Shown one piece after another: positions 35,841 to 40,622 of a stretch of DNA of 64,000 nt; the stretch's first letter is position 1; each line of letters opens with the position of its first letter. This stretch comes from Methylacidiphilum kamchatkense Kam1 (GTDB taxonomy: Bacteria; Verrucomicrobiota; Verrucomicrobiia; Methylacidiphilales; Methylacidiphilaceae). The position numbers and the translations under genes were made by a program. The notes beneath the pieces were generated by a model. That model did no database searches, was not told the DNA's origin, and saw nothing but the letters and a program-made list of their open reading frames with translations. The stretch covers positions 558,001 through 622,000 of the forward strand of contig NZ_CP037899.1 of NCBI RefSeq assembly GCF_007475525.1. Reading direction: 5' to 3'.

Positions 35841-36194
35841 CTATGAGTCTGTCTTTGTTTCTTTGTCAAGTTCTTCAATGATACGTAATACTCGGTCTCC
35901 TCTATCTAATGAATTGTCGATTTTAAAAGTCAACCGTGGTGTAAATTTGCTTTGCAATCTCTTCCCAATCCACTGTTGCCATTCGTTTCGGTGCCTATTT
36001 AAAATCATAAGCAAGTTTTCATCAGGGATGGAGGCGTCAAAAAGGCTAATAAAAATGGAAGCTTCTTTAAGATCAGCAGAAGTTTCTACAGCAGAAATAG
36101 TTAACACTAAGCCTTCGAGTTCTACTTCTCGTTGAAAGCACCAAGATAACTCCCGACGAATGACTTCCGAAACCCTAATCGCTCTGGTTGTCAT
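35841..36194 (-). CDS. rbfA: ribosome-binding factor A
   Basis: 117-aa single KH-fold protein that binds the 30S subunit and helps 16S rRNA 5'-end maturation, especially in the cold. It starts MTTRAIRVSEVIRRELSWCF and has the family segment SAVETSADLKEASIFISLFD. It is the third gene of nusA-infB-rbfA, 30 bases after infB. Typical neighbours truB and nrnA are missing next to it. Confidence 0.92.
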   Translation of the reverse strand: MTTRAIRVSEVIRRELSWCFQREVELEGLVLTISAVETSADLKEASIFISLFDASIPDENLLMILNRHRNEWQQWIGKRLQSKFTPRLTFKIDNSLDRGDRVLRIIEELDKETKTDS

Positions 36195-36224: not shown

Positions 36225-38312
36225 TTATAAACTTTGTGGTACCTTTTCCAATTGATAACATTGAATAATATCATCAGGCTCATAATCATTGAAATTTCCT
36301 AGACGAATACCACATTCAAACCCCATCCTCACTTCTGATACTTCATCTTGAAAGCGTTTCAACGAAAGCACCTCACCATCATATATGGGCTGTTTACCTC
36401 GTAAAACTCTAGCTAATCCACCTCGTATAATCCGTCCAGATTGGACCATACACCCTGCAACTTTATATTTAGACAATTCGAAGACTTTCTTGACCACAGC
36501 TGTACCAATAATAGACTCTCGTAGTTCAGGTTCTAAAAGACCAGACATTGCTTCTTTGACTTGGTCAACTAGTTCATAAATAACACTGAAAAGCTTAATT
36601 TGAACCCCTTCTCTCTTTGCCAACGCAGCCGCAGCAGAGTCAGTTTTTGTATTAAATCCGATGACAAGTCCACCGGCAGCCTTTGCAAGAAGGATATCAG
36701 ATTCTGAGATGGAACCCACACCAGAATGAATGATGTCTAAATCGACTTTTTGACTGGAGATTTTTTTCAATTGGTCAATGAGAGCTTCCAGTGAGCCTTG
36801 AACATCGGCTTTAAGAACAATATTCAAAGTCTTTTTTTGGCCTTCTTCAATTGCCTGGAAGATGTTTTCGAGAGTGACTTTAGGTGTAAGAGAAGCTTCC
36901 CGGTCTTTCTTAAGGGCTTCGATTCTTTCTTGAACTATTTCTTTTACCTTCTTTTCATCTTTTTCAACGACTAATTCTTCTCCAGGTAGAGGGGCTCCGT
37001 TGAGACCCAGAACCTTGACGGGCATAGAAGGAAAAGCCTCTTTGATGTTCTTCCCAGTATCATCAATAAGGGCTCGAACTTTCCCATAATAAATCCCACA
37101 AAGCACAATGTCTCCGACTTTGAGACGCCCTGATTGGACAATCACTGTGGCCGTTGGTCCTCTGCCTTTTTCTATCTGCGATTCGATAACCCTAGCTTTG
37201 GCATTGCCTTCATAATTGGCTTTTAATTCAAGGATTTCAGCTTGAAGCAAAATCATATCGAGGAGGTTGTCGATACCAATTTTTTTGATAGCTGAGACTT
37301 CACAAAAGATGGTATCTCCCCCATATTCCTCGGGAACAAGACCGATTTCTTGGAGTTGAGATTTTACCCGTAGAGGATTAGCTCCTGGCAGGTCTATTTT
37401 GTTTATAGCAACGATTATAGGCACTTTGGCATTGCGGGCATGATTAATGGCTTCTATAGTTTGAGGCATGACTCCATCATCGGCGGCTACAACTAGAACC
37501 ACAATATCAGTGATCGAAGCTCCGCGGGCTCGCATAGCTGTAAAGGCTTCATGACCAGGAGTGTCAATAAATGTTATGGATCGTCCATCTTTAACCACTG
37601 TATAAGCACCAATATGTTGTGTTATTCCACCAGCTTCTCCTGCTGCAACTTTTGTTTGTCTTATGGCATCAAGGAGCGAAGTTTTCCCATGATCCACATG
37701 CCCCATGAAAGTTACTACAGGTGCTCTTGATTTAATATTAGATAGGGGTTGAGGAGGAGGGGCTTGAGCCTTTGGCTTTCCTAAGGGTGCTGTATGCACT
37801 GGTGCATGCCGTTCCTTTTTGTCAGTCTGTATGGTTATTCCAAGTCTCTGACATACCCCCTGAATGACCCCTTCGTCTAGTAATTGGGTCATAGAAGCGA
37901 ATATGTTCATTTCCATCAAATGGTGGATAAGCTGGAAAGGTTTGATTCCGATCAAAGCAGCTAATTCTTTTACTGAAACTGGCCCTTTGATAGCAATCAC
38001 TCGTTTTTCCCCTTCCTTGGGGACGGCTGGCTTCGATCCTTCTAGAACTGGAATGGCTTTATTATTTTCTTTCTCTAGAGAAGGTAGAGTGGATAGAGAA
38101 GAATCTTTTTTTTCTTCTTTTTTGGTTTTTTCTTTTATCTCTTCTGAATCCAAAGCAGTGGCGACAGCAGCTTTAGGTTTTTTTTCTTTCGTAGTCAATG
38201 AAAAATCAGCCTCCTTGGTAGACTTCTTAGTTTTGTCTAAAGAAAGTCTATTAGGCGAATTGCTAGCAAACGATTTTATTTCATTTGTTGGAGAACATTT
38301 TTTCGAATTCAT
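36225..38312 (-). CDS. infB: translation initiation factor IF-2
   Basis: 695-aa GTPase that brings initiator tRNA to the 30S subunit. A Lys/Glu-rich disordered N-terminus (about 1-110) is followed by an IF2_N domain (PVSKELAALIGIKPFQLIHH-like region, near 118-170). The G domain follows (GHVDHGKTSLL near 206-216; DTPGHEAF; NKIDLPGA), then domains II-IV. The motif VVKKVFELSKYKVAGCMVQS near the end is standard. It sits between nusA and rbfA. Confidence 0.97.
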   Translation of the reverse strand: MNSKKCSPTNEIKSFASNSPNRLSLDKTKKSTKEADFSLTTKEKKPKAAVATALDSEEIKEKTKKEEKKDSSLSTLPSLEKENNKAIPVLEGSKPAVPKEGEKRVIAIKGPVSVKELAALIGIKPFQLIHHLMEMNIFASMTQLLDEGVIQGVCQRLGITIQTDKKERHAPVHTAPLGKPKAQAPPPQPLSNIKSRAPVVTFMGHVDHGKTSLLDAIRQTKVAAGEAGGITQHIGAYTVVKDGRSITFIDTPGHEAFTAMRARGASITDIVVLVVAADDGVMPQTIEAINHARNAKVPIIVAINKIDLPGANPLRVKSQLQEIGLVPEEYGGDTIFCEVSAIKKIGIDNLLDMILLQAEILELKANYEGNAKARVIESQIEKGRGPTATVIVQSGRLKVGDIVLCGIYYGKVRALIDDTGKNIKEAFPSMPVKVLGLNGAPLPGEELVVEKDEKKVKEIVQERIEALKKDREASLTPKVTLENIFQAIEEGQKKTLNIVLKADVQGSLEALIDQLKKISSQKVDLDIIHSGVGSISESDILLAKAAGGLVIGFNTKTDSAAAALAKREGVQIKLFSVIYELVDQVKEAMSGLLEPELRESIIGTAVVKKVFELSKYKVAGCMVQSGRIIRGGLARVLRGKQPIYDGEVLSLKRFQDEVSEVRMGFECGIRLGNFNDYEPDDIIQCYQLEKVPQSL

Positions 38313-38346: not shown

Positions 38347-39603
38347 TCAATTTGTTTTTCCTGCCAAGTGAGCCGCTTCTTTTAAGCGATGGATCAACTG
38401 CGGATCCAGCTCAGGAAGAGCAGACATAAGATCTTCTTCTTCACTTTCAGCCACAGCTTCAGGATTAATAAAACCTGCTCTTACTATTTGTTCAGCCACG
38501 CTTTGATCAATAGAAAGCGTAGAGGCCATCTCTTCAGCGGCTTTGGTAAGCTTTTGTGTAAAATTATCCACGGTTGCAGATGGTTCTTTGACAACGTCTA
38601 TATCCCACCCGACAATTTTGGATGCAAGCCAGATATTTTTCCCTTTTCTGCCTAGCGCTATGGAATAATTTTCTTCATCCACTGTTACTTTTACTCGGCG
38701 GTGTTCTTGATCCACTTCCACTTTCTTTACTTTTGCGGGTTTCAAGGCTTCAATAGTTAGTTCTTCTACATTGGGTGACCATTTGAATAAATCAATCTTT
38801 TCGCTATGCAACTCTCTGACAATATTTTTTACACGTGCCCCACGGACACCGACACAGGAACCGACAGGATCAATTTTAGGATTGTTTGTCCAAACGGCAA
38901 TTTTTGTGCGAAATCCAGGTTCTCTTGCAATGGCTTTTACTTCGACAATTTTATCTGCTACTTCACTGACCTCTAATTCAAGAAGGCGTAATATGAAATT
39001 AGGATGGCTTCGAGACAGAATAATCATAGGGCCATGTGGAGTGTCTTCTACAGAAAGTACATAAGCCTTTATTCTTTCCCCAACAACGTACTCTTCTGTA
39101 GGCACTCTTTCTTTAGCAGGCATTATGCCTTCATATCTTCCCAAGTCTATTATAACATCAGATCTCTCTATTCTTCGGATGGTGCCGCTAACAATATTGT
39201 TAATGCGATCTTTAAATTCTGACAGAACCATTTTTCTTTCTATGCCTTTGAGGGCTTGATTTATAGTCTGTTTAAAAACTTGAGCGGCAATTCTGCCAAA
39301 ATCTTTCGGAGTCACTTCCACTTCAATCAGATCTCCAAGCTTGACATTTGGATCGATTTCTTTTGCTCTTTTGATGGAAATTTGATCATGGCTGTTCTGG
39401 ACTTTTTCAACAACTTCGAGTTTGGCTAGAACATTGATTCGTCCAGTTTTAGGATGGATCTCTACCCTAAGATCCCTGGCAGGTCCGATGCTTTTTTTTG
39501 CGGCCGCCAATAAAGCTGACTGCATCGCTTCGATGAACACCTGCCTATTGATCCCCTTTTCCTTTTCCATGTATTCCATGATAGCTAGGACTTCCTGATT
39601 CAT
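38347..39603 (-). CDS. nusA: transcription elongation/termination factor NusA
   Basis: 418-aa protein with the N-terminal RNA polymerase-binding domain (about 1-125), S1 domain (GTIRRIERSDVIIDLGRYEG, near 134-153), two KH domains (DPVGSCVGVRGARVKNIVRE near 229-248, and NYSIALGRKGKNIWLASKIV near 306-325) and a short C-terminal helical region. It modulates pausing, intrinsic termination and antitermination. AAGGAGA precedes the ATG. Its leader contains an intrinsic terminator (39625-39657), which suggests regulation of the whole nusA-infB-rbfA operon. Confidence 0.96.
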   Translation of the reverse strand: MNQEVLAIMEYMEKEKGINRQVFIEAMQSALLAAAKKSIGPARDLRVEIHPKTGRINVLAKLEVVEKVQNSHDQISIKRAKEIDPNVKLGDLIEVEVTPKDFGRIAAQVFKQTINQALKGIERKMVLSEFKDRINNIVSGTIRRIERSDVIIDLGRYEGIMPAKERVPTEEYVVGERIKAYVLSVEDTPHGPMIILSRSHPNFILRLLELEVSEVADKIVEVKAIAREPGFRTKIAVWTNNPKIDPVGSCVGVRGARVKNIVRELHSEKIDLFKWSPNVEELTIEALKPAKVKKVEVDQEHRRVKVTVDEENYSIALGRKGKNIWLASKIVGWDIDVVKEPSATVDNFTQKLTKAAEEMASTLSIDQSVAEQIVRAGFINPEAVAESEEEDLMSALPELDPQLIHRLKEAAHLAGKTN

Positions 39604-39624
39604 GGCTTTCTCCTTAATTTTAAA

Positions 39625-39657
39625 GAAAAAAGTGGAAACTTTAACACAGTTTCCACT
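39625..39657 (-). terminator. intrinsic terminator inside the nusA leader (attenuator)
   Basis: Read on the minus strand, AGTGGAAAC (39657-39649), a 9-nt loop, GTTTCCACT (39639-39631) and a run of six T (39631-39626) make a textbook terminator with a perfect 9-bp stem. It lies between the nusA promoter and its ribosome site, with no minus-strand gene upstream for it to end. A CCACT near the 5' end of the predicted transcript (39680-39676) matches the CCACT of the 3' arm and could pair with the 5' arm AGTGG instead, acting as an antiterminator. Regulation is inferred. Confidence 0.75.
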
Positions 39658-39686
39658 CTTAAAATCAAAAAAATCAGTGGTGCAAT

Positions 39687-39715
39687 AATTTACTCTTGTC
39701 GTTCTCTATGGTCAA
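39687..39715 (-). promoter_or_regulatory. sigma-70 promoter of nusA-infB-rbfA
   Basis: On the minus strand TTGACC (39715-39710), a 17-bp spacer and TAAATT (39692-39687). Transcription would begin near 39680, giving a leader of about 77 nt that contains the terminator at 39625-39657. Confidence 0.65.
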
Positions 39716-39747: not shown

Positions 39748-39779
39748 AGATTCTTATTTTAAAAAAAAAATATATAGGG

Positions 39780-40622
39780 GTGACTACTAAGAATCAAAAA
39801 AAATCAATTCTTGAATCGGCTGATCGACTTGGCATTATTGCTGGTCGGGGTGTGTATCCATTGCTTGTGGCAAAAGGAGCAAGAAGATCTGGGGTAGAGA
39901 AGATTTTCTCAGTCTGTTTTGTGTCCGAAACAGATCATCAGATGGAGACTCTTTCGACTGCAGTGGAATGGATTCGGGTTGGTCAGCTTTCTAAATTGAT
40001 TCAATTTTTCAAAAAAAATGAAGTCAAAACAGCCATCATGGCCGGAGGGGTAGCTCCATCTCATCTTTTTGAATTAAGACCTGATCTGCGAGCTATTTTG
40101 CTTTTAGCAAAACTAAAGGAAAGAAATGCTCATACAATTTTTGGTGCCATTGCTCAAGAGCTTGAAAAAAATGGGGTCATTCTTTTAAATGCCACTACTT
40201 TTTTAGAAGACCAGTTAGCCCCTTCGGGACAATTTGGAGGGCCTCACATTAAAAAAAGATATTGGGAGGATGTTGAGTTTGGGTTTAGAATCGCCAAAGA
40301 AGTCGCAAGGCTTGATATAGGTCAATCGGTTGTGGTTAAAAATGGAACAGTGCTATCGGTGGAGGCATTTGAAGGAACCGATGAAGCCATGAAAAGAGGC
40401 GGAGAATTGGGAAGAGGAAGTGCCATGCTAGTGAAAGTTAGTAAGCCTAATCAAGATTTTAGGTTTGATGTTCCTGTTATAGGGATCAAGACGATTGAGT
40501 CAGCTCAACGGTTTGGCATTGGTACCATTGTATGCGAATCAGCAAAGACGCTTATTTTGGAGAAGGAAAAGGTGGTAAGTTTAGCCGATCAGACTAAAAC
40601 AAGCCTGATCGGATTTCCATAG
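39780..40622 (+). CDS. lpxI: UDP-2,3-diacylglucosamine pyrophosphatase (LpxI, DUF1009)
   Basis: 280-aa LpxI-family hydrolase that removes UMP from UDP-2,3-diacylglucosamine to give lipid X, the lpxH-independent route to lipid A. Signature stretches are LGIIAGRGVYPLLVAKGARR, MAGGVAPSHLFELRPDLRAI, SVVVKNGTVLSVEAFEGTDE and IGIKTIESAQRFGIG. The start is GTG; AGGGG directly precedes it with little spacing, so the exact start is uncertain. It is followed at 10 and 8 bases by an oxidoreductase and lpxB, which supports the lipid A role. Confidence 0.92.
   Translation: MTTKNQKKSILESADRLGIIAGRGVYPLLVAKGARRSGVEKIFSVCFVSETDHQMETLSTAVEWIRVGQLSKLIQFFKKNEVKTAIMAGGVAPSHLFELRPDLRAILLLAKLKERNAHTIFGAIAQELEKNGVILLNATTFLEDQLAPSGQFGGPHIKKRYWEDVEFGFRIAKEVARLDIGQSVVVKNGTVLSVEAFEGTDEAMKRGGELGRGSAMLVKVSKPNQDFRFDVPVIGIKTIESAQRFGIGTIVCESAKTLILEKEKVVSLADQTKTSLIGFP

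Follow-up and report, generated by a model that had tools for sequence, protein, structure and literature searches.

The nusA-infB-rbfA operon in the window, i.e., the whole stretch of 64,000 nucleotides of Methylacidiphilum kamchatkense Kam1 DNA that was analysed, is preceded by a leader with a predicted promoter, a perfect hairpin and a tract of six T. Attenuation of transcription of the operon at this site, which had been suggested by an earlier sequence-only reading, is well supported by the comparison with related genomes: promoter, hairpin, U-tract and nusA follow each other in this order across the whole class, and compensatory changes have preserved the pairing of the stem. It is likely that the leader terminator attenuates the operon, with NusA most likely limiting its own synthesis, and feedback by NusA is the best explanation for the arrangement. 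The hairpin and the U-tract would form an intrinsic terminator within the nusA-infB-rbfA leader; transcription from the promoter at 39715-39687 would often end near position 39626, giving an RNA of about 55 nt, and read-through would produce the operon mRNA. Since NusA stimulates hairpin-dependent pausing and termination, high levels of NusA would most likely raise termination in the leader, thereby lowering the amount of NusA that is made. We infer that a part of the transcripts is terminated here in vivo and that NusA sets the efficiency of this termination. In the literature, no paper was found that treats a nusA leader terminator in Verrucomicrobia. The features of the leader and the operon are as follows.

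39715-39710, minus strand: -35 element TTGACC; a TTGAC-type -35 is also found in the leaders of relatives
39692-39687, minus strand: -10 element TAAATT; the transcription start is placed by spacing
39680-39676, minus strand: CCACT, the proposed antiterminator arm, present in the five genomes of the genus
39658-39666, minus strand: 5' strand of the outer helix P1, GATTTTAAG, predicted from native versus swapped flanks; it may extend to the T-run at 39673-39667
39631-39657, minus strand: terminator hairpin P2, AGTGGAAACT-GTGTTAA-AGTTTCCACT, predicted from folding, covariation and model match
39631-39626, minus strand: U-tract of six T, with a counterpart in each of the 38 leaders from the order
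39616-39625, minus strand: 3' strand of P1, CTTTAAAATT, which only read-through RNA would contain
39615-39610, minus strand: Shine-Dalgarno sequence AAGGAG of nusA
38347-39603, minus strand: nusA, first gene of the operon (TIGR01953, E 4.2e-115)
36225-38312, minus strand: infB, encoding IF-2 (TIGR00487, E 7.9e-224)
35841-36194, minus strand: rbfA (TIGR00082, over the cut-off, E 6.5e-17)

The promoter that had been read from the sequence, TTGACC and TAAATT at a distance of 17 nt (39715-39687), was borne out: it matches the consensus at 9 of 12 positions, and spacing places the predicted start of nusA transcription at about 39680 on the minus strand. Along this strand, the promoter is followed by the hairpin, the six T and the ribosome site of nusA, whose ATG start codon lies at 39603-39601. 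A similar arrangement, TTGAC with a T[AG]NNNT-type -10 element at 15-18 nt, lies ahead of the hairpin in 75 of 92 leaders, compared with 2 in shuffled sequence, and the promoter of the relatives is located upstream of the hairpin by a median of 61 nt. A weaker second promoter-like site (TTGATT, 17 nt, TATATT) is found further upstream of nusA (39769-39797, minus strand). The gene upstream of nusA is lpxI, and NusA itself is 99% identical to that of Methylacidiphilum sp. Yel, the nearest named relative found. P2 was also considered as the terminator of the upstream gene; this was rejected since lpxI is divergent here, and in most relatives the promoter is located upstream of the hairpin.

In the stem of P2, AGTGGAAACT (39657-39648) pairs with AGTTTCCACT (39640-39631) through 10 perfect pairs enclosing a loop of 7 nt, and three flanking A/G-T pairs could extend the stem to 13 pairs. 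The sequence-only reading had described a perfect stem of 9 bp followed by T6, of which the perfection and the six T hold, while the length has to be corrected to 10 pairs, or to 13 with the flanking pairs. The 10-bp stem contains 4 G-C pairs and leads into the T6, the combination of hairpin and U-tract that characterizes an intrinsic terminator. P2 is the strongest terminator-like match (13 pairs) in a scan of 12 kb and, with 33.7 bits, the best match in the window to the covariance model described below. The 12-kb scan returned 13 terminator-like matches versus 11.7 in shuffles, i.e., no excess; since as many sites are found in shuffled sequence, the single match is weak proof by itself, and the case against chance is made by the conservation of P2 in the relatives.

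It had further been proposed that the CCACT at the 5' end of the RNA repeats the 3' arm of the stem and could form an antiterminator. CCACT is indeed present at 39680-39676, and the five genomes of the genus share it; the role assigned to it, however, did not hold up. It pairs with AGTGG as a helix of 5 bp only, and the fold forced in this way reaches -7.0 kcal/mol versus -16.5 kcal/mol for the terminator, which is better by about 9.5 kcal/mol. In the genus, the CCACT:AGTGG helix could exist transiently, as long as the 3' arm of the stem has not yet been transcribed, with a calculated energy of -5.2 kcal/mol. In the relatives, the 5' leader has no advantage over a swapped one in pairing with the 5' arm of the stem (median percentile 0.47 for the order and 0.48), and no conserved helix incompatible with the terminator, as expected for a classical terminator/antiterminator switch, was found across them. 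The CCACT antiterminator was thus rejected as weak, confined to the genus and devoid of a counterpart in relatives.

The nusA leaders of 38 genomes of the order, of 60 class members outside it and of 20 genomes from the other classes of the phylum were compared; these counts include several groups from one genus or family, whose genomes are not independent. The dyad, for which a search upstream of nusA in relatives had been advised, was recovered: a hairpin with six or more T immediately behind it is present in 38 of 38 leaders of the order, which represent 9 families, and the element is found in most of the 60 further leaders of the class. A fixed rule, a few of whose calls (e.g., L059, L067, L079) lie away from the signature hairpin, identifies a terminator in 92 of the 98 leaders of order and class, compared with 18-22 of 98 dinucleotide-shuffled leaders; in L079, the signature hairpin was seen by eye elsewhere in the leader. 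No terminator was called upstream of nusA in the class members L063, L069, L072, L086, L091 and L098, either through loss or through a misplaced start codon, and since a few families of the class are without such a hairpin, the element is not indispensable. In an alignment of 48 leaders, 95.4% of the stem cells are paired versus 84.5% in shuffles, both sides have changed in 8 of the 10 stem pairs, and the covariation score is 0.351 versus 0.190 +/- 0.012 in shuffles; pairing drops to 53-61% when the partner is shifted by one column. The covariance model R1, which was built on these 48 leaders, has its best match at the nusA leader in 44 of the 57 genomes searched whole (counted from the table); for the 38 of these 57 genomes that lie outside the training set, the nusA leader is among the matches in 29. 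In the other classes of the phylum, 15 of the 20 held-out leaders match the model at E < 0.01 on the sense strand. Judged by this distribution, the element is far older than the window and conserved in the order, in most of the class and in 15 of 20 leaders of the other classes.

The mode of conservation also bears on the nature of the dyad. A near-palindrome just downstream of a promoter, of which the genome holds a single copy (GTGGAAAC..GTTTCCAC), could be a DNA operator bound by a repressor; however, a U-tract is conserved on just one side of it, and the five core columns of the stem contain 36 G-U cells on the nusA-sense strand and no A-C cell, a count that is partly biased because the stems were first called by RNA folding of the sense strand. 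This excess of G-U over A-C points to a stem that acts as RNA, and the operator is considered extremely improbable. A hairpin of the same signature (GAGTGGGCTC..GAGCCCGCTC, followed by T8) serves as the end-of-gene terminator of an ordinary gene in one of the related genomes (L100:985-1020), and the signature hairpin is not exclusive to nusA leaders. The terminator might therefore be a fixed attenuator, which reduces operon expression to a constant extent without sensing any signal, and with which it would also agree that the hairpin alone fits an ordinary intrinsic terminator and that neither an antiterminator nor a ligand-binding domain is conserved across the relatives. This is unlikely, since the signature is conserved far beyond the needs of termination, with two stem pairs being GC in 48 of 48 leaders and the nusA leader usually being the best match genome-wide. 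Moreover, some feedback would be hard to avoid, because most intrinsic terminators of B. subtilis are stimulated by NusA (PMC12288461).

Attenuation at the head of this operon has been described in other bacteria. The rimP-leader has been called the most ubiquitous transcription attenuator, and both NusA and RimP have been named as its possible regulators, with Naville and Gautheret (2010) favouring NusA; an antiterminator is not visible in most species, and the text of the paper does not mention Verrucomicrobiota (PMC2965389). Like the element of the window, the rimP-leader belongs to the nusA-infB operon, in whose leader a short hairpin with a G-rich 5' arm and a C-rich 3' arm is followed by a T-stretch (PMC2965389). 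In contrast, nusA and not rimP is the first gene here, with RimP undetectable in the phylum, the stem of the window, GTGGAAAC/GTTTCCAC, is without the GGGc(...)gCCC signature, and members of the order add the outer helix P1. The element would act in the manner of a rimP-leader. Since two defining features fail, i.e., there is no rimP and no GGGc..gCCC stem, the window element is a real lineage variant of the rimP-leader kind rather than a member of it. Most leaders of the class outside the order have a GTGGG..CCC or GTCGG..CCG stem. In E. coli, GGGCTTTAGGCCC and T7 are located just before rimP; model R1 gives no match to the E. coli leader, and a common origin with the E. coli element therefore rests on resemblance. 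Rfam RF01770 (rimP), which takes its name from the corresponding operon leader of other bacteria, passes the cut-off in 0 of 57 class genomes and in 1 of 14 control genomes, and none of the weak matches that were checked lies at the nusA leader, so that identity with RF01770 was rejected.

Which factor would be sensed is a separate matter, and IF-2, RbfA or another factor could take this role instead of NusA. Control of termination by IF-2, RbfA, a ribosomal protein or the state of translation would be in line with the presence of infB and rbfA in the same operon, and ribosomal-protein leaders control termination in this way in other bacteria. The Rfam L20_leader (RF00558) also matches over the nusA leader (39618-39703, minus strand); however, its 27.6 bits are far below the gathering score of 58.7, the match is restricted to the window's genome among the 18 loci scanned, and an L20 leader was rejected. 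Neither a larger conserved structure of the type expected for a ribosomal-protein site nor a conserved leader peptide was found in the leaders. An open frame does run from the GTG of the stem to the nusA start; no ribosome site was seen for it and the loop lengths vary in relatives (by eye), and a leader peptide was dismissed. Control by a factor other than NusA is thus regarded as quite improbable. RimP, which was searched for with the model of its N-terminal domain only (PF02576), was undetected in the window's own genome and in 79 of 79 genomes of the phylum, and was detected in 10 of 14 control genomes; RimP is therefore unlikely to be the sensor. A whole phylum that keeps the element before nusA and shows no RimP separates RimP from NusA and favours NusA as the regulator. 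NusA feedback is proposed by analogy with the rimP-leader and with B. subtilis, where, in the account of Mondal 2016 given by a review (PMC12288461), NusA is autoregulated via NusA-stimulated termination in its own leader. Both systems, as far as that account goes, place an intrinsic terminator that controls entry into nusA in the 5' leader; the feedback is experimental in B. subtilis and deduced here, and the two leaders are likened by description.

The hairpin and the U-tract are enclosed by the predicted outer helix P1, which arises from pairing between their two flanks and is seen in many of the order's leaders. For the window's own leader, the native combination of flanks gives stronger pairing than swapped combinations (percentile 0.007). 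When each genus of the order is represented by a single leader, native flanks average -12.9 kcal/mol versus -8.7 kcal/mol for re-paired flanks, and none of 20,000 permutations is as good as the native P1 flanks (p about 5e-5), a result which stands without the genus of the window. In 33 other families of the class, a p of about 0.04 was obtained. The existence of P1 is supported by these comparisons in the order, and weakly supported beyond it. RNA polymerase has to pass the U-tract before the 3' strand of P1 is transcribed; P1 would thus form only in read-through RNA and could therefore affect stability, processing or translation, but not the decision to terminate. In the window, P1 could extend to the Shine-Dalgarno sequence; covering this site would be no general role of P1, because the Shine-Dalgarno sequence is further away in other families. 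It may be argued that the hairpin serves the stability or processing of the mRNA, that P1 seals the 5' end of this mRNA and that no terminator operates in the cell, and the 5' end of the read-through mRNA would indeed be largely paired in the order, where P1 surrounds hairpin and U-tract. However, a U-tract directly after the stem, which is unneeded for stability, is kept in lineages where P1 lacks support, which makes this explanation very unlikely.

Returning to attenuation by NusA, a wider and rather doubtful proposal would be that one NusA-sensing attenuator, partly read by its sequence, heads the nusA operon across bacterial phyla, even after the loss of rimP, and that the order gained P1 as a second layer of control on the read-through mRNA, which in the genus could cover the ribosome site of nusA. 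The natural variants, which differ in the stem sequence and in the presence or absence of the outer helix, are a ready set for asking what NusA reads.

Further small structures were noticed in the leaders of the class. In several families (L050, L060, L065, L076 and similar), a second small hairpin, TGCTGG..CCAGC, is located upstream of the terminator, and four of the leaders with this hairpin share the stretch CTAGAACGGTA before it. In L054, L060, L062, L064, L071, L074 and L076, GTTCCCC directly follows the U-tract and GGGG is found shortly after, which could form a third hairpin.
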